In this document: positions 1 through 18,111 of the stretch, piece by piece | Layout of the letters: each line of letters starts with the position of its first letter | Numbering within the stretch: the stretch's first letter is position 1 | From: a virus | Strand: one strand, 5' to 3' | DNA: 31,217 bases | IMG/VR virus record: IMGVR_UViG_3300037497_000052 | Coordinates: 1-31,217 of that record | Translations under genes and position numbers: made by a program | Notes under the pieces: model-generated | Databases searched by the model: none | What the model was told of the DNA's origin: nothing | The model's input: the letters and a program-made list of their open reading frames with translations, nothing else

Positions 1-566
1 ATGGAAAAGCACTCATCGTCCACGGATTCGACGAAAACGGTCACGCACTCCGATACCAAGTCGCGGGGGTTTGGCGGCCCGGCTACCCGGTCCCGACGGT
101 ATATGGCTACGCCATACCGGATGCTACGGCTCCTCGCATCGGCCGTATTACGTATGTTCAAAAAGATGTTACGGCTGGGTCAGTCCGCCTCTCCACTATC
201 GACGACTCGGGAGTGACCGGTCAGTTGCTCGCGGTTTATGAGCCTGACGAAGAACTGCCGCAGTATCGCCGCATCAATCTCGCGCGACCATTTTCCTGCA
301 TCCGGCTGGCCTACCGCAAGGCGACGCCGGCAGTCTCCAGTTCCTACGACCGAATCCCGCTGAAGAGCAGGCTTGGGTTCCTGCTGGCCCTGCGCGCGTG
401 CAAGGGGTATCAGGAAGTGGACCTCGCGAACGCTCACGCCTTCGAGGCGGATGCTGTCCGGTTGGAACTCGAAGCGCAGAGCGCCTCGGAGCCGTCAATC
501 GCTTTCCCGATTCAGGTCATGGACTTGAATCAGGTTCAGGACAAGTCGGATTACGAAATCTCGTGA
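1..566 (+). CDS. Tail/knob or head-tail connector-like protein, 5'-truncated by window edge
   Basis: The gene runs in from the left edge. The third frame is open from base 3 to the TGA at 564-566, giving 187 visible residues, so the start lies outside the window. The ATG at base 1 opens a different frame that is only a shadow. The N-terminal visible part is beta-rich (VWRPGYPVPTVYGYA, RITYVQKDV). The C-terminal part is helical with an Arg/Ala pattern (RIPLKSRLGFLLALRACK) and an FEADAVRLELEA helix. The gene lies directly before a hub/nozzle-like gene and overlaps its start by 4 bases (GTGA). In T7-type podoviruses this position belongs to the tail tube/adaptor protein (gp11). I infer the role from position only and do not recognise the family by sequence. 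Confidence 0.7.
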   Translation, partial: GKALIVHGFDENGHALRYQVAGVWRPGYPVPTVYGYAIPDATAPRIGRITYVQKDVTAGSVRLSTIDDSGVTGQLLAVYEPDEELPQYRRINLARPFSCIRLAYRKATPAVSSSYDRIPLKSRLGFLLALRACKGYQEVDLANAHAFEADAVRLELEAQSASEPSIAFPIQVMDLNQVQDKSDYEIS

Positions 567-2572: not shown

Positions 2573-3714
2573 GCCGCGTATTTTCCTACCTCGACGTGAT
2601 GGCTATGCGAATCGTTCCGCTTCGCTATTCGGCCCCGCCCATCTGCCTTTACGCTTTCTCCAGCACTGGCTCGCAGACGGTAGTGCTGGCCCCCCTTGAG
2701 TTCAAGAGCGGGCCAACCGGTCTGTCGGTGAATCGCATTGGCGGCGGCCTCCATCTGTCGTGGGGCTCGTATCCGGGAGTCATCTGTTACACTGTTTACA
2801 AGCTGGAAGACCCGAACAATCCGCTCAGTCCCTACGTGGTAGTTGCCCAGTGCATCGAGGACACTACCATCACCATCCCAGAGACGGGTTGCGAGACTTA
2901 CATCGTGACTGCCCTCACCCCGGATGGCGAATCCCAGTCTTCCGAGACGTTCACCGTCGGGCCGGATTGTCTGGCACAAATTTTCTGGAACTCAGAGCAG
3001 TCGGTGGTCATCCCCTGCCCGGTCGGAACCACGGGGGCCGACGGGGGCTACACCACGGCAGCGGACCTGTTTGGAGCCAACTCGCAGGCGGTTGCCGACG
3101 CCAATGCGCTCGCCTACGCCAACGCGAACCTTGTGCAGCCCACCTGCGTCCCGGATGGCGGTGGCGGCGGTCCGCTGGTGTATTCCTTCGCGTTCAACCC
3201 CATGACCCAGCCGGCGGCCTGCCTCGGGTCCATGTTCGCCAGTGAGACCTCGCTGGTCCACACCGGGCCGGATTCTCCGGTCCTTCCGTTGCTCTGGTCC
3301 TACGTCGGGGACATCCCGGACGGAATGGTTCTCGCGCTGGACGAAGACGATTTTCTGGGCGGTCGCGGATTTTGGCTGGATGGGGTTCCCACCAACACCG
3401 GGGTTTACGATTTCTCAGTCGCCGTGTCGGACAGCGCGGTCCCGGCATATTCCACCATTCGGGATTACACCTTTGTCGTGGCGGAGATAGACAACGCGGC
3501 CACCCTCACGGCGGCCACGGAGGCAGTTCCCTACTCCGTAACTCTCACCCAGACCGGTGCAGTTCCTCCGGTCACGGTAAGCTGGGCGGTAACATCCGGC
3601 GTGTTGCCAGATGGACTTACTCTCGACTCCGCCACTGGAGAAATCTCCGGGACACCGACCGTTCCGGGAGTCTTCGTGTTCACTGTCACTCTATCCGGGG
3701 ACATCCCTGTCTGA
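2569..3714 (+). CDS. Ig-like tail surface protein with FN3, cysteine-repeat and He_PIG-type modules
   Basis: 381 residues; the ATG at 2569 overlaps the previous stop as ATGA. Three kinds of module are visible. Residues about 45-130 look like a fibronectin type III or Ig sandwich (GGGLHLSWGSYPGVICYTVYK). Residues about 140-195 contain an IPCPVGTTG stretch followed by SQAVADANALAYANA and a cysteine, the layout of DUF5977-like repeats. After a short Gly linker come two putative Ig (He_PIG-like) domains; the second carries LPDGLTLDSATGEISGTP, a strong signature of that family. Ig-like domains on tailed phage virions usually decorate the surface and bind weakly to cell-surface sugars. The position between the hub and the collar-like gene fits a tail appendage. 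The exact role is not known. Confidence 0.75.
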   Translation: MSRVFSYLDVMAMRIVPLRYSAPPICLYAFSSTGSQTVVLAPLEFKSGPTGLSVNRIGGGLHLSWGSYPGVICYTVYKLEDPNNPLSPYVVVAQCIEDTTITIPETGCETYIVTALTPDGESQSSETFTVGPDCLAQIFWNSEQSVVIPCPVGTTGADGGYTTAADLFGANSQAVADANALAYANANLVQPTCVPDGGGGGPLVYSFAFNPMTQPAACLGSMFASETSLVHTGPDSPVLPLLWSYVGDIPDGMVLALDEDDFLGGRGFWLDGVPTNTGVYDFSVAVSDSAVPAYSTIRDYTFVVAEIDNAATLTAATEAVPYSVTLTQTGAVPPVTVSWAVTSGVLPDGLTLDSATGEISGTPTVPGVFVFTVTLSGDIPV

Positions 3715-3715
3715 T

Positions 3716-4231
3716 ATGATTTTTCCCCTTTGTGAAAAAGAGTTTTCCATCACCGTCGCGGGAACGGGAGAATTCTTCAATCTGGAAGCGCACACTGCTT
3801 ACGCTTGGTGCGACAATGACCCGGTTCCGCTCTACGCGGCGACCATCGGTATCGGTATTTCTTCCTCCTTTGTATCACAGCAGGATGCGGAAGACGTGGC
3901 CTGCGCGGCAGCCCGAGCGGCTCTTACCGCGTCAATGCCCGGCCACTGCGCGAACTTCACCCTTGCCGCGGGGTGCAATAGCTCTCCCCCTTTGTATAGC
4001 AATGTTGCCGTCGCTGGTCTGGTTTACTACTGCGATGGTGATTGCGGAAACATTGGCAAGTTTCTGACGGGCACCTGCGTCGCCGCGGATAGCTACTACT
4101 CCCGGATTTCTCAGGTGGACGCAGATGCACAGGCGCAAGCCTTCCACCAGTATCTTGTGGATTTCGTCGCGAACGACGGGGCCGCTGAGTGCTTCCCCAA
4201 CGGACCGCCGTCCTCCTGCGGAGCTTGCTGA
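3716..4231 (+). CDS. Cysteine-rich repeat protein, tail-associated, unknown function
   Basis: 171 residues. The ATG at 3716 follows the previous stop after a single base (TGATATG). An open frame extends upstream to 3611, but that stretch lies inside the previous gene, so the ATG at 3716 is preferred. The protein contains two copies of a module that ends in a helix beginning SQ-x-DA and closing on a cysteine: FVSQQDAEDVACAAARAAL near residue 60 and RISQVDADAQAQAFHQYLV near residue 140. The same module occurs once in the preceding gene. Cysteines are frequent (WCDND, AGCNSS, YYCDGDC, SSCGAC at the C-terminus), suggesting disulfides in a secreted or virion-surface setting. There is no recognisable signal peptide. 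Probably a tail appendage partner of the preceding protein. Confidence 0.65.
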   Translation: MIFPLCEKEFSITVAGTGEFFNLEAHTAYAWCDNDPVPLYAATIGIGISSSFVSQQDAEDVACAAARAALTASMPGHCANFTLAAGCNSSPPLYSNVAVAGLVYYCDGDCGNIGKFLTGTCVAADSYYSRISQVDADAQAQAFHQYLVDFVANDGAAECFPNGPPSSCGAC

Positions 4232-4259
4232 CAGTAGCGGTAATTGACACCTTTCTGAT

Positions 4260-5084
4260 ATGAGCCTTCTCGACACAAATCTGCTGGTGCAAATGGCCCG
4301 GCTTCCGGTGGATTTCCGCGGAAGCCCGCAAGACCTCGCGGACACGATGGTCGGCAACATGCGCATCGTCTCCCCGGTGGGCACGAACTTTTTTGTCGTC
4401 GGCGACATCGAACCGACCAGCAATGTCGGCCCGTGGTTGAAGTCCGGCCGAAGCTGGTGGACGTGGAGCGAGTCCATCAAGCGGTATGCCCCGCAGGACA
4501 TCACGGAGTCGGAGAAAAACTGGTTCTGGGCAGGCGTTGATGTGCCTACCTCGACGCCCCCGCTGATTTGGCTGGAGACGAACGCCTCGGGCCGCGCGAC
4601 GGGCTGGAAGTATTTCAACGCCACGCTGAACGTCTGGGAGTTCTTCGCCGGCCCGGTGCTGGCTGGCCCCGGCGGTGTAAACGGCGCCGACCGCCCCACC
4701 AGTCCCGCCGAGTATCAGCAATTTTTCGACACCGACCTCTCGGTCCTGCTCTGGCAGGAGCGCGGTAAATGGCGCACGGTGTCCGGCGTCCCCGGCGACA
4801 TCAAGGCCGTTTTCTTTGACACGCTGGCCGAGGCGCTGGAGCACAATCCGGGCTGGGTCTATTTCGGCGAAACTGGCGCAGCCTCCGGCTTCCGTGGGCG
4901 CATCATCATGGGTGCTACCAAGGACTCGGGAGCTTCCCCCGAAGCCGCGTATGCGCCGCCGAACGACGTAGCGGCCCGGGCGAACAAGGAGACCTTCGGC
5001 GAGACCGACGGCATCACCATGTCCACGACCTCGCCCGTCCCGCTGCCGCCGCAGGTTGCCTTGTGGCATCTCATCAAGGAATAA
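4260..5084 (+). CDS. Tail collar/fibre-like protein
   Basis: 274 residues from the ATG at 4260, 28 bases after the previous stop and with no Shine-Dalgarno sequence. The central part is rich in Trp and Phe (GRSWWTWSESIKRYAP, EKNWFWAGVDV, WKYFNATLNVWEFFAG). Residues about 175-225 follow the layout of the phage tail collar domain found in fibres and microcystin-dependent proteins: a PGDIKAVFF strand, then NPGWVYFGETG, then FRGRIIMGATKDS. The C-terminus ends PLPPQVALWHLIKE, similar to the tail end of that family. The neighbours are the Ig/cysteine-repeat proteins upstream and the internal virion genes downstream. Receptor recognition or attachment of a fibre are both possible. The family assignment is by eye. 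Confidence 0.65.
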   Translation: MSLLDTNLLVQMARLPVDFRGSPQDLADTMVGNMRIVSPVGTNFFVVGDIEPTSNVGPWLKSGRSWWTWSESIKRYAPQDITESEKNWFWAGVDVPTSTPPLIWLETNASGRATGWKYFNATLNVWEFFAGPVLAGPGGVNGADRPTSPAEYQQFFDTDLSVLLWQERGKWRTVSGVPGDIKAVFFDTLAEALEHNPGWVYFGETGAASGFRGRIIMGATKDSGASPEAAYAPPNDVAARANKETFGETDGITMSTTSPVPLPPQVALWHLIKE

Positions 5085-5548
5085 TGGCGCTCCGCACCCG
5101 GCGCCTTTTTCCGTTCGAGTTCGGCCCGTATTGGCGGACGCTGGCCCCGCAGATTGACGCCTCGGTGAAGTATCACGGGAAGATGGACCCGGAGCACACC
5201 GTCGGGACGATGCTGCCGCTGCTGGAAAGCGTCCGGGCGGTGGCCTTTCTGCTCTACGACGACGAGCGACCAACGACCTGCGCGGGGATGCTCTTCGGGT
5301 TCATCGCGCCGAATATGTTCACGGGCGCTCTGGAGGGGCTGGAAGGTGGTTGGTTTGTCGCTCCTTGCGTCCGCCGGAGAAATTCAGCACTTCTTTTGCT
5401 GAAGGCGTTCGAGGAGTTCGCCAAGACCGCCGGCTGCATCCGCGTGCTGTCCGGCTCGACAATTTCGCATAGAGCGGGAGCGATGAGCCGGCTCTATCGG
5501 CGGCTCGGGTATCAGCCTCACGCGGAGGCATTCAGCAAGGAATTGTAA
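5084..5548 (+). CDS. GNAT-like internal virion protein (T7 gp13 position)
   Basis: 154 residues. The ATG at 5084 shares its first base with the previous stop (TAATG), and AAGGAA just upstream is one of the few good ribosome-binding sites in the window. The fold pattern is that of a GNAT acetyltransferase: beta strands around AVAFLLYDD and GMLFGFIA, then GGWFVAPCVRRRNSALLLLKAFEEFAKTAGC, then a final strand-helix (MSRLYRRLGYQP). The acetyl-CoA loop is degenerate (RRRNSA where R-x-x-G-x-G/A is expected), so catalysis is doubtful. T7 gp13 and its relatives (DUF2833) are GNAT-like and sit in the same place, directly before the gp14-type core protein; they are needed for assembly of the internal core. 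That role is inferred here from fold and position. Confidence 0.7.
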   Translation: MALRTRRLFPFEFGPYWRTLAPQIDASVKYHGKMDPEHTVGTMLPLLESVRAVAFLLYDDERPTTCAGMLFGFIAPNMFTGALEGLEGGWFVAPCVRRRNSALLLLKAFEEFAKTAGCIRVLSGSTISHRAGAMSRLYRRLGYQPHAEAFSKEL

Positions 5549-6498
5549 TGGACGGAGTATTTGGAGCCATTGGAAGCGTTGCAGGTGCCGCTATTTCCGC
5601 CAGCGCCACGAAGAGCGCGGCGGAGAAGCAAGCGAACGCGCTGAAGGAAGCGCGCATCTACAACTATGTCAACCTCGACCCCAACCTCATCAACGCCAAG
5701 GCCAAGGCCGCCGACATCAAGCGCGCCCAAGGGCAGATGGCGCTTCAGTCGCAGATTGACCCCAATCTGGCCGCTGCGCGAAATCTCGGTTCGGCTGCCG
5801 TGGCAAAGGGCGCTGCCGAGATTGGCTCCGCCGCGTCCGACCGCGTAGCCGCGCAGGCGGAAGGCTCTTTGGTTTCTGATGAGCGAATCGGCCAGTTGAA
5901 GGACCAACTCCTGAAGGCGGCGCTCAACGATATTTCTTCCGGCTCGACACTCCCCCCGGACCTGCAAGCGGAACTTGTCAAAGCTGGGCTAGAGAAGGGG
6001 GGAGCGGCGGGCGTCGGCTTGAATCCGAAATCGCTGGCAGGCCAGAACACGCGCCAACTTATCGGCGAGCGCGGCCTCGCTCTGCGCAACGAGCGCCTTA
6101 ACCGCGCGACGGCCTTGACCAAGTTCGCTTCGGACTTGGAACAGAACCGCACGCGGTTGCTCACGGACCTTTTCCCTCGCCTCCAAGGCCAGCAAGCCAA
6201 TAACGCGGCGCTGGGCGCGGGGGCCGTTTCTCTTTCGCAGTCCATGATGCCTTCGGCCGGACTGTCGGGCGAGAATATCGCAAGTCTCTGGCAGGCGCGA
6301 GTCCTTGGGACTAGCAACCTGACTCAGCAAATCGGCAACACGCAGGCCAGTGCCGCCGCGTCGATGGGCAACATCTACGGCAAGCTGGCCGGCGGACTCG
6401 GCGAGAGTGCCGGGAAAATCTATCAGGGCATCACGAACCCGGCGACTACCAATCCGGTAGGTAGTGGCGGAGCGACCAGCTACGGCGGGGTGGCATAA
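5548..6498 (+). CDS. Internal virion protein, T7 gp14-like
   Basis: 316 residues; ATG at 5548 in a TAATG overlap with the previous stop, with AAGGA seven bases upstream. The N-terminus is a glycine/alanine hydrophobic helix (GVFGAIGSVAGAAISASAT), as in ejected podoviral core proteins that insert into the cell envelope. Long Ala/Gln-rich helices without cysteines follow (NAKAKAADIKRAQGQMALQ, RNERLNRATALTKFASDLE), then a Gly-rich tail. It sits between the GNAT-like gene and two further core-type genes. In T7, gp14 leaves the head first and forms the outer-membrane part of the DNA channel. The assignment rests on position, size and the N-terminal helix, not on close sequence similarity. Confidence 0.65.
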   Translation: MDGVFGAIGSVAGAAISASATKSAAEKQANALKEARIYNYVNLDPNLINAKAKAADIKRAQGQMALQSQIDPNLAAARNLGSAAVAKGAAEIGSAASDRVAAQAEGSLVSDERIGQLKDQLLKAALNDISSGSTLPPDLQAELVKAGLEKGGAAGVGLNPKSLAGQNTRQLIGERGLALRNERLNRATALTKFASDLEQNRTRLLTDLFPRLQGQQANNAALGAGAVSLSQSMMPSAGLSGENIASLWQARVLGTSNLTQQIGNTQASAAASMGNIYGKLAGGLGESAGKIYQGITNPATTNPVGSGGATSYGGVA

Positions 6499-6499
6499 C

Positions 6500-7453
6500 A
6501 TGGGCACCCCTCTCAAATACACAGGCCGGACTCCTGCCGCAGCCCCGGTAAAGCCGGCGACCAATCAGGTCTGGCATCTGCCTCCGGCCTTTCGGATGAA
6601 CACCGCCCCGAAGCCCTCGGAGAAGCGGGCGGCCGGCCAGTCCTTGCTTCCCCCGGCCGCGCAGGGCAAGAAGACCACGGCTCCGCTGGCGCAGGATGAC
6701 CAGAGCCGGACGAATCGCATCCTTGAGCAGATGGGCATCACGGATACCGCCCTCGGCTCCCGGAACATTTTCGACACGCGGAAGGGCGCCAGCACGGCCA
6801 CTTTTGGAAACCCTGCTTTTGATAACAGGCCGACCATCGAATCCCGAACCGGTCCCGGCATCAAATACACGGTCCCGAAGTCCGCGGCTGCCGCCGCCGC
6901 CGCCCCCAAACTGAACGACCCGGCGCTGGCCTCCCGCGGCTCTTCCGCTGCTCCCACAGTCAAGGTAGTCGGCCAAAGCTCTGTGTATCAGGGCGAGAAC
7001 GGCGGCGGACTTGCGCAGTCAGTCAACAGCCTGAATACCTCGCAGGAAGAAGCGGCGGCCCTGCAAGAGCAGTGGCGCCAGCGTCTTTTCGGTATCGCGT
7101 TCAGTGGTCAGGGCGGAGTGGGAACCGACGAAGGACTGATGCAGCTAAGTCAGTCGCAGAACGCTCTCGGGCTGCTGAACACCAGCTTCGGAGGCAAAGG
7201 CGTGATGGGGGGCGGCCTCGACATCGCGGCCATCGTCCGCGCCCGGGCAGACTATCAAACCAAGGCGGCCGAACAGATGCGCAGAGCCGACAACGAAGGG
7301 TCTCTCCGCTGGGAACAGCAGAAGATTACTCAGGCTCCCTCTAACCCGTGGTCCTTGGAAAGTTCGTGGGACCGGGACGCCCGCAAGAAATTCAACACCC
7401 GAAACATGGAAGCTACCATCCTCGGAGTGAGTCCGTCTAGCTTCTGGTCCTAA
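6500..7453 (+). CDS. Putative virion-associated protein, unknown family
   Basis: 317 residues from the ATG at 6500, one base after the previous stop. A frame open from 6464 lies inside the preceding gene and was not used. The first 120 residues are low-complexity, rich in Pro, Ala and Lys, and probably disordered. An Ala tract (SAAAAAAAPK) follows, then a helical C-terminal half with many Gln and Arg (QEEAAALQEQWRQRLF, ADYQTKAAEQMRRADNEGS). It lies between two internal-virion-type genes and is probably a core or ejection protein as well, but I do not recognise it. Confidence 0.6.
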   Translation: MGTPLKYTGRTPAAAPVKPATNQVWHLPPAFRMNTAPKPSEKRAAGQSLLPPAAQGKKTTAPLAQDDQSRTNRILEQMGITDTALGSRNIFDTRKGASTATFGNPAFDNRPTIESRTGPGIKYTVPKSAAAAAAAPKLNDPALASRGSSAAPTVKVVGQSSVYQGENGGGLAQSVNSLNTSQEEAAALQEQWRQRLFGIAFSGQGGVGTDEGLMQLSQSQNALGLLNTSFGGKGVMGGGLDIAAIVRARADYQTKAAEQMRRADNEGSLRWEQQKITQAPSNPWSLESSWDRDARKKFNTRNMEATILGVSPSSFWS

Positions 7454-7458
7454 CTCCT

Positions 7459-9108
7459 ATGGCATTCAACGACTCGCAACCTAACGTCCTAGTCAACCCG
7501 CTCCCGTTCATCTCGGGGGTGCAAGACCCTACTGTCATCCCGCGTGCGGCGGCCAGCTACGACGCCGTGGCGCAGGGGGCACTGCAAGCCCGTGCCATCG
7601 GCGAGCCGTTCAGTCCGAAGGCAAATGCCGAGACTCAGGCGGCCATCGCCGAGGCCAACCTTCGGCGCAAGACGGCGCAGGACGAAGAAATCAATGGCGC
7701 GAAGAAGGCCATCGTGGTAGCCCAAGGCGCGGCGTCCAAGATGGCGCTCGAAGACCTGAAGTTCAACGAGAACACGCGCGGCTGGCATGAGGCTATCAAG
7801 ACGGGCCGCATGTTTGACGAGTTGCACGAGATTGCCCTCGGGGGCAGCAAGGAAGCCGCCGATGCCATGTCTTCCCTGTTTGTCATGGCCGGGCAGAGCT
7901 TACCCCGCAAGCTGAGTGGTCAGATTGACACCGAGGCGGCGCTGGCGCAACTCCCGGAGATGAATGCTTGGAACCAAGAGGTCAAGCAGGCCCGGGCCAT
8001 CCAGAACCCAGACAATCTTTTCTATCAGGAAGAGGTTCGCCCCGTCGCAGGCGGACTTCCGGGGGCCACTTACAAGACCCGGGTCCGATACAACAAGGCC
8101 ACCGGGCGCCCGTGGACGGAGGATGAGCAACGGAATGCCGTCGCCAAGGAGAGTATGACCTTCTCCCAGTGGAAAATACGCCGGGATAAACAGGGAGGCG
8201 CTCCGGTAGCTGCCCCTGCCAATGGTGCCCCGGCGAATACAGCGCCGGTCCCGGACCAGCCCGGCGCGGTGGCCCTCAACCCTCCGGCTGCCGCCAAGGC
8301 TGCCGCACTGTCCGCGGTCAACTCTGGTTCTGCGACTCCCGTCGCGGTAGCCGCAGGTGCGCTCGGGGTATCGCCAAAGGACATGCCGGCAGTCAAGGGG
8401 CTTCCTGCTGGCTTCTCCATGAACGCACTCGGGCAGGTCGTGGACTCCTTTGGCTCGGTGGTTACTGACTTCGACCCGGGCAAGAAGGAAGGCCACAACC
8501 GGACTGAATCCCAATACAAGGCGATTGACTACGCCATCCGCATGAAGCTGGGAGACGATGCGTATTCCAACCTCATCGCACAAGGGTTCAATCCGGCATC
8601 TTGGTCCACATACATGCAAGACGCGACTATCTATCCCGATTTCCTGCGGACGGACCTGATGACGGTATTCGATACGATCGTGGATTCCACGGCGAACGCC
8701 ATCCTCCGTCGCGACTCCGGCGCAGCCATTACAGCCGACGAACGGGCGAGCTACCGGAAGATGCTTTTCCCAGTTATCAACGACTCTCCGCAAGCGGTGG
8801 AGTTGAAGCGGAAGCTTCGCGTGTCCATCCAAGAGACCCTCCGACGGGAAGGCAGCGCCGAGGCGCAGCTTTCGCCCGAGGAGCTCGCCGTGCTTACTCA
8901 GGTTCGCGGCACGCACGCGCAGCTTGGCGTCAAGCTCCCGGGAGAATCCGCTCCCGCTGCCGCGGCGAATCCGCTTCCCGGCGGCGCTATGCGTAGCCCG
9001 AACCCCGGAAAATACTACGTCCAAAAAGGCACAGTCCAACCCAAGGCCCAGACCAGCGGTGTGAATATCAATATCCCGCCGCTCAATCTCCAGCCGGCAA
9101 AGAAGTAG
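7459..9108 (+). CDS. Internal virion / DNA ejection-type protein
   Basis: 549 residues from the ATG at 7459. The N-terminal 200 residues form long helices (NAETQAAIAEANLRRKTAQ), followed by a Pro/Ala linker near residues 250-290. Residues about 355-470 carry a pattern seen in many phage virion proteins: ESQYKAIDYAIRMK, then FDTIVDSTANAILRRDSGAAIT, then ERASYRKMLFPVINDSPQAVELKRK. From memory, the (A/R)-x-LR-x-[DE]-SGAAI core with a downstream FP and DSP is shared by ejection and giant polyvalent proteins. The C-terminus is Pro/Ala-rich. Its place just before the giant gene matches T7 gp15. Role inferred. Confidence 0.65.
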   Translation: MAFNDSQPNVLVNPLPFISGVQDPTVIPRAAASYDAVAQGALQARAIGEPFSPKANAETQAAIAEANLRRKTAQDEEINGAKKAIVVAQGAASKMALEDLKFNENTRGWHEAIKTGRMFDELHEIALGGSKEAADAMSSLFVMAGQSLPRKLSGQIDTEAALAQLPEMNAWNQEVKQARAIQNPDNLFYQEEVRPVAGGLPGATYKTRVRYNKATGRPWTEDEQRNAVAKESMTFSQWKIRRDKQGGAPVAAPANGAPANTAPVPDQPGAVALNPPAAAKAAALSAVNSGSATPVAVAAGALGVSPKDMPAVKGLPAGFSMNALGQVVDSFGSVVTDFDPGKKEGHNRTESQYKAIDYAIRMKLGDDAYSNLIAQGFNPASWSTYMQDATIYPDFLRTDLMTVFDTIVDSTANAILRRDSGAAITADERASYRKMLFPVINDSPQAVELKRKLRVSIQETLRREGSAEAQLSPEELAVLTQVRGTHAQLGVKLPGESAPAAAANPLPGGAMRSPNPGKYYVQKGTVQPKAQTSGVNINIPPLNLQPAKK

Positions 9109-9131
9109 TAGCCCTTGACCCGACGAGATTT

Positions 9132-9159
9132 TTCTGGCACTCTTTTGAGTATGCCAGAA
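9132..9159 (+). promoter_or_regulatory. Hairpin covering the giant gene's start codon
   Basis: TTCTGGCA (9132-9139) pairs perfectly with TGCCAGAA (9152-9159) across a 12-base loop. The ATG of the giant gene is 9151-9153, so its T and G are inside the stem and its A is the last loop base. In mRNA this could keep the start closed. The gap before it (9109-9150) also holds a TTGACC at 9115-9120, but no good -10 box follows. Eight-base arms at this spacing occur by chance a few times in a window of this size; only the position makes it notable. Confidence 0.4.
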
Positions 9160-12100
9160 TCTTTGTCCCCCGAAACGCCGCCCGAAGGATACCGCCTCGC
9201 CACGCCCGAGGAAAACGCGGAGCTTTCCAAGCTCGACACCGCTCCTGCGGCTGGTGGTCCTCCCCCGGGCTACGAAGAAGTGGGGGCCGCCGACCTTCCC
9301 GATGAGGTTCTCCGTGCGGAGGCTCTCGCCGGCAACCTCAGTCCGGCCCAGATAGCTCGGGAGAACCGGGAACGGTATCAGACAGACCCCGTATTCAAGA
9401 AGCGGCTGGCCGATGCCATGTTCGCGACCGAGGAACAGGGATTTCAGCTTTCCGACTTGAGTCTCCCGGACATGGCCAAGGGCGCCGCCCACATGGGCAA
9501 GAGCTTGGTCGAATACACCGCACAAGTTCCCCTCACTCTCCCGGGCGTTCCGGCGACGGCCAACGCAATCCGAAATTTCCTGAAACGCTGGGACACCAGC
9601 GACGCCGCGATTGACGCTTCCACCAAAGAGGGCGGAACGGTATTTGCCGCTCCACTCATCAAGGGAGCACTCCACAAACTGAACGAAGTCGCCGACTCGA
9701 TGGTCAAGCCGAAGTTGATTGCGGCCACCGAAGGCGCGCAGGTGGGCATGGCGGAACTGGTCAAAAAGGGTGCCCGCAAAGCGGCGAACCTTGTTGATTT
9801 CGACGGCAAGACGGATGAGGAACGTGCCGCCCGGCTGGATGACGCCATCGAATCCGCGGACATGATGGAAGGCATCTCCAAGGGTGAGGGCGTTTGGACG
9901 CAGCGCCTTCAGGGCAAGCATCTCGACGAGATGAAAAAGAAGGGCGTCAAGCTGGACCCGCAGACCGTCAGTGAACTCATGGCGGGCGACCCGCTTACTT
10001 TCTACGGATTCGGGAAGGCGTTCGGGGCGGGGACGGCACTTATCGGTGCTTCGGGCCGGGTGATTGCGCGGGCGCCCACGTTCGCCGCAGCGCAGGCGAC
10101 CAAGAACGCTTTGCGGACGGCGCAGGTTGCCAAGCTCTCTGCCGACGCCCGCCTCGCCGGAATCGCGTCCGCTGAGAATGCCACCGCAGCCGAAGCAGCA
10201 GCCGCGAATCTTCGGGCGGCCAAAGCGGGCATGACCCCCACCGCCAAGCTTTTCGCGGGGGCCGAAGATTTGGCTGGTGGGATAAAGACCATACCGCAAA
10301 AGCTGGTTGGCGCAAGCTTCTGGTCGGCTGGAAAGACGGGAGAACTGGTGGCGACCGTCGCCAAATGGGCAGGAAAAGCAGCCCCGGCTATCGGGCTGGT
10401 CAAAGGCTTTGCAGAAGGCGGTCCCATCGGCGCACTGGCCGGACTCAAGGCCGGCGAAATGTCGGGGAAACTCATTCAGGCAGGCGCTATCCGGGCGGGC
10501 GTGCGTACGGCCAAGGTCAGCAACTTCGGAAAATCCGTTTACAAAGACGCGGCCACGACTCCCGCACAGCAGGCGACCATCGACCTCGCGGCGGGCGCTG
10601 GCAAGGTAGCGGGGGGAGCCTCCAAGGGTCTTGCCATCGACCTCGGTGTCGGCGCGGCGACCTCTGAGAGTCCTGAAGACACGCGCGGCATCACTCCGCT
10701 GGGCGCTATCTTCGGCGCGGCCCACGCGGTTCCCGGCTCGGCTCGTCATTTTCTACAGAATCAGCTTCTCGCCCCGCGAAACTGGGCGGACACGAAGCCT
10801 ACGGCAACGAAGCCCTACGGAAATTTTCCGACGCTCGACGCTCTGCACGCGGAGGCTCAAGGAATCGCGTCTGAGGGCGTCAAGCAGCGCCTCGGCGCCC
10901 TGCGCACGTTCATGGACCCTACGGGGGTGGAAATCTACCAGATGCCCAGTCGCGGCGCACTGGAGAGCTTCCTAGTGGAGCAGTTCCAGAGCGAGGGGAT
11001 GACCGGAGGCGACGCACTGGCACAGGCCAAGGAATTCGCGGGGAACGCCGGTCTGTTTACACGGCTTACCGACTCCACCGGCAAAGTCCGCCGGGTGGGG
11101 CTTCTGGTTGACCCTGCCCCCGCGCCGCACGAAGCTTTTCATGGGCTGGAAGACGTTCTTGGAGCTCCGGCAGCGGAAGCCCTCCGGGACATGGCGGCCA
11201 AAGAGTATGGCCCGCGCTGGAACATCGAGGGGCGATATTATGCCAACCGGCTCGCCGGCCCGACCGGAGGACTGAAACCCTACCTACAACGGGGCGAAGA
11301 CTGGCAGCACGCCATGCTTGACGCCTCGGGCGGCGGGGATTCCACGGCTCGCTCGGTTCTGGCCGCGCGCGAATTCAAGGCGAAGCGAGACGCGGGAGCG
11401 CCCATTACGCCGGAGCAAGCACTGGAAGCCGCCGACGCGCAACTGAAGGCGATTCCCGAAGGCTGGCGAAAAGTCCTTAGCCCGGAGCACATCGAATCCG
11501 CCGCCGGGCGGTATCTCGCCTCGGAGCTTGTCGCCGAGAATTTCGACACCCTTTTCAAGCACGAGAATCCGGGGAAGCCCTCCGGGAAGTCTTTGCCGGA
11601 GCGATTCGGCCGCATCTTGGCCAACCTCTTCGAGTCAGCGGGGGCAGACCCCTACACCGGGGCGGAATCGGAAGGACTGCGAGTGCAGCCGAAGCGCAGC
11701 GTGATGCAGGCGGTCAAGGAAGTGTCCACGGGCGTCCGGGACATCCTCGGCAAAACGGAGAAGCCGACGCCGGGAGCATCCAAGGCGCCCACGGAGCCGC
11801 CCAAGCCCGGAGCGCCGGAGCCTGTCACCGAGAACCAGACCCGCGCGCAGGAAGCCGCAGCGGCCAGCGGTGACGCTCGGGTTGCCGAGTTGGTGAACCG
11901 CATCGTGGAGAACCAGAAGGCCGGCGATGCGCCGCTTCGCCTGACTTACAAGTCGGTGAAGGGTCTGCCCGGGGGAGCCGCTGAAGCCTTCCGCACCGGC
12001 CGCCGGTCTGAGCAGGAGGCCGCCTACATCAAGGAGGGTCTCTCTTCGATGGACATGGACACGCGCAACGCGGTCCAGAAGATTCACGCGCACACCCGCT

Positions 12101-15100
12101 TCGAGTTCGTGAAGGGTGGGAAAGAAGTCCAATCCATCGGTTACTCGCTGGAAAAACTCGTCGGCAATGTCCAGAGGACCGTCGATTGGATTCGCAAGTC
12201 GGGTAACACCGAACTTGCGAATCAGGTGCCGTATGAACGAAACACCTTCGGCACTTCCCTGTCCGAGACGGGCTGGAACCAATTCATCTCCGACGTGCAG
12301 CGATACGCAGAGAATCAGCAGAAGGGTGGAACCGGTGCTGGCGCAGAGTTGAAGCTCCCGGCCGATGCCGACGCGATGGGCGTCACGGTGCCCGCCTTCG
12401 AGGGCATGGGCGCGATGAAGCCCATCGAACAGGGCAGGGCCGACTTTATCAATATGCTCATGGGCTTCAAGCTGCCCGAGACTACTCGTGTGAGTAGAGC
12501 CGGCGGAACGCCGGGCAACGTGGTGGCACAGCGAATTGCTGGAGCCAATGAGCAGCCTTTCGTCGCACCGCGCGTAAGCGAGCCGGCGACCCCGCGCGGC
12601 GAGGGCAAACCCTTCAAGGGCTTTTCCGAGTCCATCAAGGAAGTCAATCCGGTTCGCCAAGAGTTCGAGGCGAAGGGCTTGCCGGTCAACGAACTGGTGG
12701 AAGTCGTGGAGCGCATCAACCTCAAGCATCTCGACGCGGTTACTGCCGCGCCGGAAGTCGGCTTCAAGGCTGGAGTCACCGACACCATCCGCGCCGGCTT
12801 CATGCCCGAGAAGGCAGCCGACATCATCAAGCTGCCTGCGGAGGCATTCCGCGACGAGACGATTGCTTACAAGGGTAAGAACGGCGGCGGGCTTACCGGC
12901 ATGGCGGTTGACCTCGGGGCCAAGATGACCGAGGCACAGCACGCCGACTTCGCGCAGGGTATGGAGAGCGTCAAGGGGGAGATTAAGTCTCTCATCGACG
13001 CGGGCGAGTTCCAATCGGCGATGGATATGTCGGTCAAGGGCCAGTTCTTCCGTGAGGCGATTGAAGCGGCCACGGGCGGCCCGCCGGCCGAGTTCGTGCG
13101 CCGGAAACTCAACCCGGAATATCGGGGCGCGTTGGAAAAGGGTTCTGAGACCAAGGCTTCGGAGGAAGACTTTGCGCTGGAGAATGATTTTGCCAAACGG
13201 CTGCTCGACGGGTCAGCAAAGATAGAAGAGTTCCCCTACTACAAGGACTACGAACAAACGCTTTCGCAGGAAGCCACCCTGCTGCCCGCGGGTGCCGAGA
13301 AAGTCCTTTTCGTGGGGACCGGTCCAGTTCCTCTCTCCGCGCATCTGCTGGCTCGCGAAGGGAAAAGCGTAACGGGGTTGGAGATTGACCCGGGAGCGGC
13401 GGAGACCGGCCGGAAGGTGCTGGCTAAACTCGACACCCCGGCAAGTGTGCTGGTGGGCGACGCTACCACGTTCAAGAACTTCGGCGACTACGATGCCGTG
13501 GTGCTTGCCCTTGAGGCGGGGGCTACCACGAAACAGAAGAACGGAATCCTCGCCAACATTCGTGAGCAGATGAAGCCGGATGCGGTTCTGTTGGCCCGCG
13601 GCGCGAAGACCGAGGCGGAAGGGTTTCCAACCCTCGGGGATGAGGTCAAGAATTTCAAGGAGACGGGAACGGTTGACACCTTCGGAGGACTGTCCCGGAC
13701 TGCCCGGCTTGAAGTAAAGGCCATGCCGGAGGAAGGCAGCGACCGACCCGCGTTCTACTCCCGCCTTACCCGAACCGTGGAGCAATCGCCGCAAGGCCGG
13801 GCCAGCGGCGCACAGTGGAAGGCCACCATCAAGGGCAGCAAACTCGGGGCAAGCGAGGGCGAGATGGATTTGGTGGGTGTGAGGGACTTGGAAGACGGCA
13901 CGACTTACACCAAGCAGGAAGTGCTGGACTACCTGAAGGCCAATGAAGTAGTGGTGAAGGACGTGACGCTGGGCGAAAAGCCGGAATACAAGTGGTCACA
14001 GACGAACCCGGAAACGGGCAAAGTGTCAGCGGACGTCTATTACTTAAAGGACGCCAACGGAAAAGCACTTAACGGGATGGTTTTTCTTAGCTCTGATAAA
14101 ACGTGGCACGCCCGGTATAAGAATAATGCTACTCTACTGGGATACGACACGCCGCAGGACGCGATGGCTATGCTGGAGGAAGGGTATGGACTTCCGAATG
14201 ATGTTAAAGCCCACTTCTCCAACTACCAGTTGCCCGGCGGGAAGGAAGGCAGCTACCGGGAAGTGCTGTTGACGGTGCCCAGTAACCGCAATTATTCCAC
14301 GGACCCCATCGCCGCCAAGGTGGCTGCAAAGTATGGCATCCCCTATGGGGAAGCGTCCGCGCACAAGCTGGGTGCTGCGGGTGCCGACAATCTGGAAATC
14401 GCAAGTTGGATGGAGGGCACCAACCGAGGTGCCCGGGAAGATTGGAAGGACGGCCACTCGAACTACTCCAGCATCGCCAATCCCATCGTTCGGCTGCGCT
14501 TTAACGAGCGCACCACGGCGGGCGGCAAACGGATGCTTTTTCTGGAGGAAGTGCAAGCTCCGCAAAAGGGCGAGTTCGAGAAGATGCCCAAGCTGTTTCA
14601 GGACAAGTGGCGGGACATCGCATTCAAATGGGCGCTGCGACATGCGGCGGAGAACGGATTCGAGGCCGTGGGCTGGACTACTGGCGAACAGCAGGCCGCT
14701 CGATACGACTTGAGCAAACAAGTCACGGCGGTTCACTACAATTCGGAGTCGCAAAAGCTGACAGCCGAAAATCTGAATGCGCGCGTGCTCAATCAGGAAG
14801 GCGTTACGCAGGAGAAGCTCTCAGATTATATCGGCAAGGATGCCGCGGCCAAGCTGATGACTCAGGCACCCGGCCCGACCGGAATCAGGACGCTGCGCGG
14901 GGACGATTTGAAAGTCGGCGGTGAAGGCTTGGCGAAGCTCTACGATTCTGATTTCCGTAACGTGGTCAACAGCCTGCCCGCGGTGAAGAAATCCGGGCAG
15001 AAGGTGGGGACCAGCCAGATTGTAGATGGGGAAGCGTTCGCAACTGAATCCTTTAACGCCTATCTAAAACGCACAGGACTTTACACGGATGAAGGCAGAG

Positions 15101-18100
15101 CGTCCTATATGCGTGACCGCCTGAAAACACCAGAACCCACCGTCGGGGTTCACAGCCTCGACCTCACCCCCGCCATCCGCGATTCCGTGATGGCCGGACA
15201 AGCGGCATTCATGCCGGAAGGAACGACGGCTCGCACGCTGCCCGTGGAAGGTAAGTCCGAGTTCTGGCTTCGCCCGGATGGGACGGTCCTCCAAGACCCG
15301 AATAAGTCACACGCCCGCATGGGCGCGGATGAACTGGGCCTGAAGAAATACAACGATAACAAGCCGGATGACTACACCGCCGTTTACAATGAGATGTATT
15401 CCAAGGGCTACGTGCGGGGCTACCGGGGCGGTATGGACATCAAGTTGGAGAATCCAGACACCCAGAAGATGAGTCGGGCACAGCGCGCGACGGCGGAGGC
15501 TATCTCCTTCGAGATTGAAGCTCCCGCGCGATTCGGCAGCGAGGCGCAGTTCGGATTCAAGGGCAACGTCGGAAAATTCTTTTCGCCGAACGAACGGGAT
15601 AACCCGGAAGTCACGAAGGTCATGGAGGAGCAGACCCGCCGAAAGACTGGCGAGTTTGACCCGAACCGTCAGGCTGCCGCGATGCCGGAGAAACCGCTGC
15701 GGGAGCCGTCTCCTGCGGATGAGGCCAATGCCGAGGAGCACCGTAAGTCGATGGCTGGCTACGAAGCAAGGGATGCAGCCGACCGAAAGTATTTCCGGGA
15801 CCGCATGGACCGGATGGATTACCTCCGGGGCCAAGCCACGGGCGACATGATTGAAGCAACGGGCGAGGAAGCATGGTATGCCAAGCCCGTCCGGGAGCAG
15901 GAAGCCGCCATTTTCGACCGCATGGTTGAACTCAACGGCGGGAGCGAAAACTTCGACCCTCCCAAGAGGGGTAAGGGTAAGACCCAGTTCATGCCCACCG
16001 CGGATGAGTGGGAAGCCAAGATGGCGGCCATACCAGAGGGCACCGTCTTTACCCGCCCAGTGGAGGAAAAGAATAACCCGAAGGTATTCACCTTGGAGGC
16101 CCGTGACCCGAAGGGACGCCAACTTGGGTATGTCACGAGCAAGCGACTCCGGGATGGGTCCGCGGAAATCACGATGGTTTATGTTGACCCGGAATACCGA
16201 GGACAGGGAATCGGAGAATCTCTCGTGTCGCAAGCGGCGGAGCATTGGATTACTGATGGGGCCACCGCGATTGCCGCGAAGACGGTATCCCCCGAAGGGA
16301 AGCGGCTAATTGAGAAAACCCTCGGCACGGCGGAAGTAGAACTCCCGGAGGGAGAGGCGCGGCGTTACTCGGGGATGGAGGTCTCTCGTTTCATGCCAAC
16401 CGCAGCCGAGTGGGAAGCCAAGATGGCGGCCAAGCGGGGCGCCAACAAGGACAAGGTTGAAGAGGTCGTTCAGGAAGCCGAGGAAGCCATCGGTATCGCC
16501 GGCACAGTGCAACTGAAGCAGGACAAGAAGCTGCCCGGTTCGATGAGCGGCGTGCTGAAGCTGATTCACTTCGGGGCTTCGGGACTCACGGAGACCAACC
16601 CGCAGAAGATGGGTTCCGGGATTGCGACCCCCACGGACATGCAGGGCGCCGCGAAGACCTACTTTTTCAATGAGGGGTCAAAGATGCAGGCGGACATTAC
16701 CCTGCGCGACCGCGGGGGTAAGTATGGCGTCCGGGTTGACGGCAACGGCGTCTATGACTTGAACAAGGACGTGCTGGACATCCTCAGCAATCCGAACCGC
16801 TGGGCGCGGGATGAGACGCTCAAGAAAGCGGGCTACACTGGGTTTCACGTCAACGTCCCGGACGGCCGGGAAGTCACCATCCTCTACAAGCCGGTGGCGG
16901 TGACTCCCATCGACCTTGGGCGGGCCTTCACGCGCGCGGTGTCCGCTCCCGGGTCCAAGTTCATGCCGGAGCAGCAGGATACCTTCCTCGGAGAACTCGG
17001 GCAGGGGCAAAAGGAATACGACCGCGCGGCCCTCAACCGGATGACCGTGGACGACCTGAAGGCACACTATCCCGAGGCCATCGTGGGCCGTCCGAAGGGC
17101 GAGGAGATTTCCTCGAACGTAGAAGGCTCTCCCCTCGCCAAGAAGGCGGGCAGCCGGGAAAAAGCCATCAAGGCTTTTTCCGACAAGCTGGTGGAGTTCT
17201 ACAAACAGAACGAAGGCGACCCGGCGCTGAAGGCAGGCGAGGAGTGGTATTCAAAATTCACCCCGCTGCTCAAGAAGGAGTTTGGAAAGGACGCTCCCAT
17301 CTTCGCCGAGTTGCTCGCGGCGACCAGCCCGCAGACGAACCCGGAGGTCAATTTTGGATTCGCCTACGACGCATACCAGAACTTCAAGTCTGGTAATTTC
17401 GACAAGCAGGTTGCCAAGTTCGTCGAGGGTCTGGCCAAGCTGGACACGGGGGAACTGGCGAAGGTTTACGCCCGGGACCAGAAGGCCGGCAAGACCAAGG
17501 ACAACCCGGCAAACCCTTCGGACGCTACCTATATCGCCCACTGGATTGACAAGCATGACTTGGTTCTGCGCGGCTCTGGGGGGAACCGATTCGGTCTGCA
17601 TTCCGTCCCGGTGCTCCGCGTGCTGGCTCGCAAGTGGCTGGACCTGAATTCGGGTCCGAAGACAGCCAACTTCGTGAAGAACCTCTTGGGCACGGGCGAC
17701 GAAGCGACGATTGACATCTGGGCCGACCGGACCATGCGCCGCGTGGGTTATGAAGGCTTCAAGGACCGCTGGCGGATTCTGCCAGAGAACGTCCAAAGCG
17801 TGACGGAAGCAGACTTCGCGTTTAGTCAGGAGGCGTTTAGCCATGCCGCCGGACAGTTGGGACTCAAGCCCTCCGCCCTTCAGGGTGCGCTCTGGTTCGC
17901 GGAAAAAAAGCTCTGGTCTGACAAGGGATGGGGACGCCTTGACCTCGGGGATTACCGGGCGGAAATGGCGAAGATTCCGCTCCTCAAGCGTGGCGCCGAA
18001 CAACGGCAAGCGCACCAGAAGGCCATGAACAAAGCGAAGACGATGGAGGAGCAGGATTTGTTTCAATCAGGGCTTGACGTAAGGCCAAGGATGAAGCAAA

Positions 18101-18111
18101 TTGGATACTGA
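9151..18111 (+). CDS. Giant polyvalent internal virion protein (2,986 aa)
   Basis: The start is the ATG at 9151; the frame is open back to a TTG at 9115, but that stretch looks like leader. Visible domains, by residue:
- 11-41: two P-x-GY repeats.
- 286-500: Ala/Gly-rich helices, possibly membrane-active.
- 660-664: HEAFH, with ELVAE at 792-796, a zincin-like metalloprotease pattern.
- 870-895: Pro-rich linker.
- about 930-1130: phage module with a DFINMLMGF/PGNVVAQ signature.
- 1361-1500: nicotianamine-synthase-like methyltransferase (FPYYKDY; FVGTGPVPL; EID).
- 1557-1910: conserved phage domain with WTTGEQQAARYDLSK.
- 2033-2140: FWLRPDG domain.
- 2283-2412: GNAT (RGQGIG at 2350-2355).
- 2465-2600: HFG domain.
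- 2660-2965: HhH-GPD-like, K2837 and D2855.
F-M-P linkers separate several domains. Polyvalent proteins are known to be carried by phages and delivered to the host. Position and size match T7 gp16, so ejection with the DNA is likely but inferred. No lytic transglycosylase motif was recognised. Confidence 0.85.
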   Translation: MPESLSPETPPEGYRLATPEENAELSKLDTAPAAGGPPPGYEEVGAADLPDEVLRAEALAGNLSPAQIARENRERYQTDPVFKKRLADAMFATEEQGFQLSDLSLPDMAKGAAHMGKSLVEYTAQVPLTLPGVPATANAIRNFLKRWDTSDAAIDASTKEGGTVFAAPLIKGALHKLNEVADSMVKPKLIAATEGAQVGMAELVKKGARKAANLVDFDGKTDEERAARLDDAIESADMMEGISKGEGVWTQRLQGKHLDEMKKKGVKLDPQTVSELMAGDPLTFYGFGKAFGAGTALIGASGRVIARAPTFAAAQATKNALRTAQVAKLSADARLAGIASAENATAAEAAAANLRAAKAGMTPTAKLFAGAEDLAGGIKTIPQKLVGASFWSAGKTGELVATVAKWAGKAAPAIGLVKGFAEGGPIGALAGLKAGEMSGKLIQAGAIRAGVRTAKVSNFGKSVYKDAATTPAQQATIDLAAGAGKVAGGASKGLAIDLGVGAATSESPEDTRGITPLGAIFGAAHAVPGSARHFLQNQLLAPRNWADTKPTATKPYGNFPTLDALHAEAQGIASEGVKQRLGALRTFMDPTGVEIYQMPSRGALESFLVEQFQSEGMTGGDALAQAKEFAGNAGLFTRLTDSTGKVRRVGLLVDPAPAPHEAFHGLEDVLGAPAAEALRDMAAKEYGPRWNIEGRYYANRLAGPTGGLKPYLQRGEDWQHAMLDASGGGDSTARSVLAAREFKAKRDAGAPITPEQALEAADAQLKAIPEGWRKVLSPEHIESAAGRYLASELVAENFDTLFKHENPGKPSGKSLPERFGRILANLFESAGADPYTGAESEGLRVQPKRSVMQAVKEVSTGVRDILGKTEKPTPGASKAPTEPPKPGAPEPVTENQTRAQEAAAASGDARVAELVNRIVENQKAGDAPLRLTYKSVKGLPGGAAEAFRTGRRSEQEAAYIKEGLSSMDMDTRNAVQKIHAHTRFEFVKGGKEVQSIGYSLEKLVGNVQRTVDWIRKSGNTELANQVPYERNTFGTSLSETGWNQFISDVQRYAENQQKGGTGAGAELKLPADADAMGVTVPAFEGMGAMKPIEQGRADFINMLMGFKLPETTRVSRAGGTPGNVVAQRIAGANEQPFVAPRVSEPATPRGEGKPFKGFSESIKEVNPVRQEFEAKGLPVNELVEVVERINLKHLDAVTAAPEVGFKAGVTDTIRAGFMPEKAADIIKLPAEAFRDETIAYKGKNGGGLTGMAVDLGAKMTEAQHADFAQGMESVKGEIKSLIDAGEFQSAMDMSVKGQFFREAIEAATGGPPAEFVRRKLNPEYRGALEKGSETKASEEDFALENDFAKRLLDGSAKIEEFPYYKDYEQTLSQEATLLPAGAEKVLFVGTGPVPLSAHLLAREGKSVTGLEIDPGAAETGRKVLAKLDTPASVLVGDATTFKNFGDYDAVVLALEAGATTKQKNGILANIREQMKPDAVLLARGAKTEAEGFPTLGDEVKNFKETGTVDTFGGLSRTARLEVKAMPEEGSDRPAFYSRLTRTVEQSPQGRASGAQWKATIKGSKLGASEGEMDLVGVRDLEDGTTYTKQEVLDYLKANEVVVKDVTLGEKPEYKWSQTNPETGKVSADVYYLKDANGKALNGMVFLSSDKTWHARYKNNATLLGYDTPQDAMAMLEEGYGLPNDVKAHFSNYQLPGGKEGSYREVLLTVPSNRNYSTDPIAAKVAAKYGIPYGEASAHKLGAAGADNLEIASWMEGTNRGAREDWKDGHSNYSSIANPIVRLRFNERTTAGGKRMLFLEEVQAPQKGEFEKMPKLFQDKWRDIAFKWALRHAAENGFEAVGWTTGEQQAARYDLSKQVTAVHYNSESQKLTAENLNARVLNQEGVTQEKLSDYIGKDAAAKLMTQAPGPTGIRTLRGDDLKVGGEGLAKLYDSDFRNVVNSLPAVKKSGQKVGTSQIVDGEAFATESFNAYLKRTGLYTDEGRASYMRDRLKTPEPTVGVHSLDLTPAIRDSVMAGQAAFMPEGTTARTLPVEGKSEFWLRPDGTVLQDPNKSHARMGADELGLKKYNDNKPDDYTAVYNEMYSKGYVRGYRGGMDIKLENPDTQKMSRAQRATAEAISFEIEAPARFGSEAQFGFKGNVGKFFSPNERDNPEVTKVMEEQTRRKTGEFDPNRQAAAMPEKPLREPSPADEANAEEHRKSMAGYEARDAADRKYFRDRMDRMDYLRGQATGDMIEATGEEAWYAKPVREQEAAIFDRMVELNGGSENFDPPKRGKGKTQFMPTADEWEAKMAAIPEGTVFTRPVEEKNNPKVFTLEARDPKGRQLGYVTSKRLRDGSAEITMVYVDPEYRGQGIGESLVSQAAEHWITDGATAIAAKTVSPEGKRLIEKTLGTAEVELPEGEARRYSGMEVSRFMPTAAEWEAKMAAKRGANKDKVEEVVQEAEEAIGIAGTVQLKQDKKLPGSMSGVLKLIHFGASGLTETNPQKMGSGIATPTDMQGAAKTYFFNEGSKMQADITLRDRGGKYGVRVDGNGVYDLNKDVLDILSNPNRWARDETLKKAGYTGFHVNVPDGREVTILYKPVAVTPIDLGRAFTRAVSAPGSKFMPEQQDTFLGELGQGQKEYDRAALNRMTVDDLKAHYPEAIVGRPKGEEISSNVEGSPLAKKAGSREKAIKAFSDKLVEFYKQNEGDPALKAGEEWYSKFTPLLKKEFGKDAPIFAELLAATSPQTNPEVNFGFAYDAYQNFKSGNFDKQVAKFVEGLAKLDTGELAKVYARDQKAGKTKDNPANPSDATYIAHWIDKHDLVLRGSGGNRFGLHSVPVLRVLARKWLDLNSGPKTANFVKNLLGTGDEATIDIWADRTMRRVGYEGFKDRWRILPENVQSVTEADFAFSQEAFSHAAGQLGLKPSALQGALWFAEKKLWSDKGWGRLDLGDYRAEMAKIPLLKRGAEQRQAHQKAMNKAKTMEEQDLFQSGLDVRPRMKQIGY
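15985..16029 (+). repeat. Direct repeat, left copy, before GNAT domain
   Basis: Codes for QFMPTADEWEAKMAA. The last 25 bases of the match (16006-16030) are identical to 16408-16432, 402 bases downstream. The two copies flank the GNAT domain exactly. Confidence 0.85.
16387..16431 (+). repeat. Direct repeat, right copy, after GNAT domain
   Basis: Codes for RFMPTAAEWEAKMAA, same frame as the left copy at 15985-16029; 25 bases are identical. Recombination between the copies would delete precisely the GNAT domain and keep the frame (spacing 134 codons). Confidence 0.85.

Follow-up and report, generated by a model that had tools for sequence, protein, structure and literature searches.

The 31,217-base virus record analyzed here (the window) encodes a giant protein with a segment resembling nicotianamine synthase (NAS), and the question it raises is what an enzyme domain of this kind would do inside a phage protein. 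The open frame yields 2998 amino acids when read from TTG 9115 or 2986 amino acids from ATG 9151, the latter being the likely start within the 2998-codon frame. Residue numbers used here count from TTG 9115 and are 12 higher than those of the original prediction, which counted from the ATG. The protein and its main parts are as follows.

9115 to 18111, plus strand: giant polyvalent-type protein (open frame, domain matches, and a module that recurs in phage polyvalent proteins)
11128 to 11142, plus strand: HEAFH (HExxH) at residue 672, a motif alone, without a Pfam match
12805 to 13752, plus strand: NAS cassette, residues about 1231 to 1546, between an FMPE motif and the FYSRL start of the shared module
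13735 to 15225, plus strand: shared module, residues 1541 to 2037 (~490 residues), common to 14 other phage contigs (IMG/VR; L002 and L015 to L027)
16066 to 16293, plus strand: GNAT acetyltransferase domain (PF00583, E = 1.8e-9)
17632 to 17901, plus strand: DUF7178/phrog_3842 domain (profile matches), present in related polyvalent proteins too

The HEAFH sequence is a possible zincin-like peptidase motif. The tripeptide FMP occurs five times in the giant protein (window positions 12799, 15208, 15988, 16390, and 16960; residues 1229, 2032, 2292, 2426, and 2616), against 0.15 expected from shuffles, apparently at domain boundaries and twice within FMPTA[DA]EWEAKMAA, and these repeats are a possible linker or processing motif. 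The replication genes of the window (polymerase, helicase, and exonucleases) follow the giant gene on the other strand. An assembly chimera was ruled out by the continuous frame, by the matching GC3 (0.74 for the NAS cassette versus 0.73 for the whole ORF), and by the shared module starting directly after the cassette.

The segment was assigned to the NAS family by its profile scores, its closest structures, and its predicted fold. The Pfam NAS model matched it at 57 bits (cutoff, 27.1 bits), compared to at most 29.7 bits for generic methyltransferase models (Methyltransf_25, with 29.6 bits on the same stretch; Methyltransf_11 gave 23 bits). In a phmmer search of the PDB, archaeal thermonicotianamine synthase (MtNAS, 3fpe) came first with an E value of 2.5e-10, followed by CntL (7e-7) and then an ordinary methyltransferase (0.0026). 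A profile built from 18 cellular NAS-family proteins, with the window left out, recovered the phage domain at 85 bits (E = 2.5e-25) and reported none of 1000 shuffles, so a chance motif match was ruled out. In the AlphaFold2 model, the core (residues 1350 to 1539) had a mean pLDDT of mostly 75 to 94, and the first six Foldseek matches in the PDB were MtNAS and CntL chains, with MtNAS first; since the AlphaFold alignment included three NAS homologues, this fold match is supporting but not fully independent of sequence. Profile positions 1 to 52 of PF03059, which make up part of the N-terminal helical domain, were unmatched, and the model there is helical with a pLDDT near or below 50.

Cellular members of PF03059 provide a scale for these scores: CntL of Pseudomonas aeruginosa scored 45 bits, CntL of Paenibacillus (whose gene adjoins an opine dehydrogenase) 39.6 bits, and CntL of Staphylococcus aureus 17 bits. 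Because its score lies above theirs, the phage domain is, as judged from sequence, a more typical member than those CntLs. Its identity to any homologue is 17 to 31%, and in a tree it forms its own long branch whose placement within NAS is unresolved (the NAS of Halocatena is nearest by path, unsupported). We are highly confident that the segment is a NAS-family (S-adenosylmethionine [SAM] 3-amino-3-carboxypropyl transferase) domain, as had been proposed from its motifs, rather than a DNA or protein methyltransferase of the ordinary kind; NAS is the top-scoring profile, and its match takes in both the FPYY and the GTGPVPL segments. The proposed span of 13231 to 13650 is a real NAS segment, but the domain is larger, with a Pfam match that begins upstream and a similarity to MtNAS that extends beyond that match to about residue 1540. 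Its landmarks are the following.

13108 to 13611, plus strand: Pfam NAS (PF03059) match, residues 1332 to 1499 (E = 2.6e-15)
13180 to 13182, plus strand: catalytic Glu E1356, aligned with MtNAS E81, CntL E84, and AtNAS1 E77 (family alignment)
13231 to 13251, plus strand: FPYYKDY motif, in which Y1379 aligns with MtNAS Tyr107 and AtNAS1 Y106 (family alignment)
13309 to 13332, plus strand: motif I, FVGTGPVP, NAS-type, without the acidic residue that methyltransferases have here
13381 to 13389, plus strand: EID, the acidic strand-2 end, which in class I SAM folds binds the ribose
13516 to 13527, plus strand: AGAT, a four-residue insertion at the place of plant VGMD, also present in two other NAS proteins (L036 and L037)
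13597 to 13599, plus strand: invariant Arg R1495 (alignment); the subsequent GxR/K..(L/F)YP signature is not kept

The motifs sit at the DNA positions originally given for them, namely FPYYKDYEQTLSQEATLL at 13231 to 13284 (from residue 1373), FVGTGPVPLSAHLLA at 13309 to 13353 (from residue 1399), and EIDPG at 13381 to 13395 (from residue 1423); the residue numbers given with them (1361, 1387, and 1411) were 12 low. The glutamate singled out in the original prediction as the conserved one of the family, E1374, is E1386 in our numbering and turned out to be a common, semiconserved, noncatalytic residue. The catalytic glutamate is E1356, which lies upstream of the span first proposed and is invariant (17 of 17 homologues); among phages, the domain comes from this one alone in the collections searched. 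Its counterpart in MtNAS, E81, was placed by way of a Desulfosarcina homologue (L009) aligned to 3fpe/3fpg, and the substitutions E81Q and E84Q are named in PDB titles. The position of Y1379 is kept in 15 of 18 proteins and is missing from CntL. In MtNAS, Glu81 and Tyr107 deprotonate the acceptor amine (PMC10491745), and in AtNAS1, E77 and Y106 are essential, with E77Q and Y106F both dead (PMC10248798). An FxGxGPxP motif I without the acidic residue of methyltransferases is the form found in NAS (PMC1282579), and G1401, G1403, P1404, P1406, K1475, and R1495 are all conserved in the phage domain.

The acceptor side of the domain is different. The GxR/K..YP stretch is lost, NNT/DT has become SRT (with N replaced by R1528), and the C-terminal signature of metallophore makers (R..xGx[RK]..[LF].YP, then [ND]T) is absent apart from R1495. 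That the donor-side residues are kept while those of the acceptor side are changed suggests that the enzyme is active on another acceptor, and we consider it probable that the phage domain is an active SAM-dependent aminocarboxypropyl transferase.

The closest solved structure by both sequence and fold is MtNAS (PDB 3fpe to 3fpj), with which the phage domain shares the Glu81/Tyr107 pair and motif I. The identity is 31% over 160 aligned columns; the phage domain has the extra AGAT, its counterparts of the acceptor-side RTYTGMR..LY.P and VNNT are changed, its N-terminal helices are unrecognizable, and it is fused within a protein of 2998 amino acids. CntL, the enzyme of staphylopine and pseudopaline synthesis, belongs to the same family, and its RRLLDG/KRLLDG stretch and catalytic Glu align with the phage domain; however, CntL lacks the tyrosine of FPYY..Y, which the phage domain has, and is encoded beside cntM and transporters, which the phage domain is not. 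With plant and halophile NAS, the domain shares the FPYY motif and a four-residue insertion at the place of the plant motif VGMD (PMC10248798), although it has neither VGMD proper nor the C-terminal signature. The motifs PFNxxGN and RxxYYxxC of the azetidine-2-carboxylate synthases AzeJ and VioH (PMC11794875) are absent from residues 1241 to 1545.

The surroundings of the domain bear on how it would be deployed. Directly behind it lies the shared module, whose sequences from eleven of the contigs that have it align at 40 to 56% identity. The module has no Pfam or NCBIfam match, and its predicted structure (pLDDT, 65) has no confident fold match in the PDB; this recurrent module may deserve a domain family of its own. 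None of the 14 polyvalent relatives has a NAS match. The region N-terminal to the module holds ART-PolyVal, LPD22, GGDEF, helicase/methylase, GNAT, DUF7178, or clamp domains instead, a repertoire typical of phage polyvalent proteins (PMC5512222). The giant protein resembles these in being large and multidomain, in its GNAT and DUF7178 domains, and in the module that it shares with carriers of ART-PolyVal, LPD22, and SNF2-methylase domains; it differs in that its effector is a NAS-family domain, and the word nicotianamine is absent from the main text of the polyvalent-protein survey (PMC5512222). Four relatives (L017, L018, L024, and L025) have a gene for a phrog_376 tail protein upstream. Given the domains that occupy the same place in the relatives and the upstream tail gene, the best reading is that the NAS domain is one occupant of an exchangeable effector slot preceding the shared module; the protein itself is, by analogy, probably packaged and ejected with the phage DNA. 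The original description of a virion protein is thus supported only indirectly, through relatives that are polyvalent and in several cases downstream of a tail-protein gene. In the window itself, the genes upstream of the giant gene are nearly unrecognizable in profile scans, with one weak virion-protein match, and an upstream gene of 549 amino acids yielded no relatives among IMG/VR viral contigs.

Two relatives carry nucleotide-related domains of interest in their own right. The giant protein of L002 (frame 2 to 15355) combines a 2'-5' RNA ligase/Acb1-like domain (residues about 674 to 758), an SNF2 helicase, and a region weakly matching an N6A methylase, and a possible injected anti-CBASS activity can be read from this sequence. 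In that of L024 (7301 to 10000), a GGDEF domain was matched (E = 5e-17), which would possibly make it an injected synthase of cyclic dinucleotides.

Searches beyond these relatives returned no second viral example. IMG/VR viral contigs scanned with the domain or its profiles yielded no viral relative, although such scans depend on short patterns that are conserved, and divergent relatives may escape them; the top matches listed from BFVD were generic methyltransferases or unnamed proteins only; and none of the open-access papers searched deals with a phage nicotianamine synthase by title or abstract. In INPHARED, three NAS matches were found in GenBank records labeled as phage, OR845003.1, OR849964.1, and OQ572412.1 (L004, L006, and L005/L007). 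We rejected all three: OR845003 and OR849964 carry an apparent S. aureus cntL, and in OQ572412 a cntL of the P. aeruginosa type is flanked by opine-dehydrogenase-like and TonB-receptor-like frames, so that each is most likely bacterial DNA. These Staphylococcus and Pseudomonas phage records thus hold apparent host chromosomal metallophore genes, a contamination of the phage collection. As far as IMG/VR, INPHARED, and BFVD show, the family is new to viruses. Cellular NAS-family genes occur in a few percent or less of sampled genomes. Some Desulfobacterota-type genomes (L009, L040, L041, L042, and L043) have two different NAS-family genes side by side, from two separate clades, which possibly form a two-step metallophore pathway, and a Candidatus Roizmanbacteria protein (L008, 4257 to 5618) has a NAS-family domain fused to a long N-terminal region of no assigned function.

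Several other readings of the domain were weighed. An ordinary small-molecule, protein, or DNA methyltransferase that merely resembles NAS would account for the weak Methyltransf_25 and Methyltransf_11 matches and for a 48.8-bit match to the PADLOC mad2 (HsdM-like) model, but NAS outscores these models with a match that takes in E1356 and FPYY, which lie outside the Rossmann core; motif I is without the acidic residue, and the place of motif IV reads DYDAVVLALEAG, without NPPY or [DNS]PP[YFW]. We regard this as very unlikely. The mad2 match was also dropped as a link to a defense system: the model is HsdM-like and matches every genome tested, and when 16 of the HsdM-like proteins that it retrieves were made into a profile, the window was not reported even with filters off. 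As a general observation, PADLOC PDLC04134 (mad2) matches 297 of 297 genomes and all 14 controls, so its hits alone are unfit to call MADS. A catalytically dead, SAM-binding sensor or scaffold would fit the loss of part of the C-terminal signature, but the catalytic pair, motif I, K1475, and R1495 have all been retained despite 17 to 31% identity, and we think such a role improbable. The original prediction had also offered synthesis of a metal chelator. Membership of the NAS family is in its favor, but no opine dehydrogenase, racemase, or transporter was found among the genes scanned in the window, the acceptor-side GxR/YP and NNT are altered, the domain is buried in an ejected-type protein, and few turnovers would be expected. 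Because the acceptor-side signature is lost and no opine-metallophore genes were seen, metallophore synthesis by the phage domain is unlikely, and we attach next to no probability to a phage-made chelator of the nicotianamine or staphylopine kind.

Two further readings keep the enzyme active and change its target. The domain might break SAM in bulk, by transfer to an abundant amine or by self-cyclization or a lyase-type reaction, and so starve restriction and methylation, as an analogue of T3 SAMase. The catalytic pair is kept, and the product expected, methylthioadenosine, is the same as that of T3 SAMase, an enzyme that depletes host SAM but is reported to be dispensable for overcoming restriction (PMC8406200). 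Like Svi3-3 SAM lyase and the SAM-AMP lyases, T3 SAMase is a phage enzyme that acts on SAM or a SAM derivative with methylthioadenosine-type products; those enzymes, however, have a PII-type fold, are free-standing, and are expressed after infection, whereas the phage domain is modeled with a Rossmann SAM fold of class I. An injected protein can be taken to reach about ten copies per cell, and the cellular SAM pool to be of the order of 100,000 molecules. Fungal and moss NAS enzymes work at 0.2 to 0.8 nkat/mg (PMC10248798), equivalent to about 0.01 to 0.03 per second for a 35-kDa enzyme, at which rate the injected copies would achieve about a thousand turnovers per hour against that pool. SAM consumption that blocks host methylation, as originally suggested, is therefore chemically possible but quantitatively weak for a few injected copies, and we consider it unlikely. 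Alternatively, the domain might erase an immune messenger derived from SAM, such as the SAM-AMP of type III CRISPR systems, or some other nucleotide signal of low copy number. A low turnover would suffice for this, a SAM-AMP lyase has already been described from a phage (PMC12255297), and relatives carry nucleotide-signal enzymes (Acb1/2'-5' ligase-like in L002 and GGDEF in L024); no sequence feature favors SAM-AMP over SAM, though, and the known SAM-AMP lyases have a different fold, making this a rather slim prospect.

We instead favor, tentatively and at slightly less than even chances, a virion-delivered NAS-family aminocarboxypropyl transferase that serves as an exchangeable effector cassette in a giant polyvalent phage protein. 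The protein would be packaged in the virion and ejected with the phage DNA, and its NAS domain would take SAM as the donor, converting SAM and an amine acceptor into an aminocarboxypropyl-acceptor and methylthioadenosine. The acceptor would be an amine other than Glu or His, most likely, by analogy, one on a host target present in few copies, be it a protein, an RNA, or a defense-related small molecule; the ADP-ribosyltransferases in the same slot of relatives would likewise mark host targets by means of NAD. A low-copy target is the better fit because the injected copies would be too slow to drain SAM, unless the domain is far faster or is made after infection. This whole scheme, low-copy target included, is a little more tentative again.

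Further effectors could be sought in the slot ahead of the shared module. Injected phage effectors are known that use NAD (ADP-ribosylation) or methylate DNA, and a NAS-family domain in an injected protein would add aminocarboxypropyl transfer to these chemistries. The family is otherwise known from plant, fungal, archaeal, and bacterial cells, and this domain would be its first representative encoded by a virus. The reading makes a sharp prediction, SAM in and methylthioadenosine out, dependent on E1356 and Y1379. More speculatively, and with somewhat less confidence, this may be the first virus-borne NAS-family enzyme, one that is delivered with the phage genome and aminocarboxypropylates a host or immune component or destroys a SAM-derived immune signal. 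If true, it would represent an undescribed chemistry of early counterdefense or takeover, in which SAM plays the part that NAD has in phage ADP-ribosylation.
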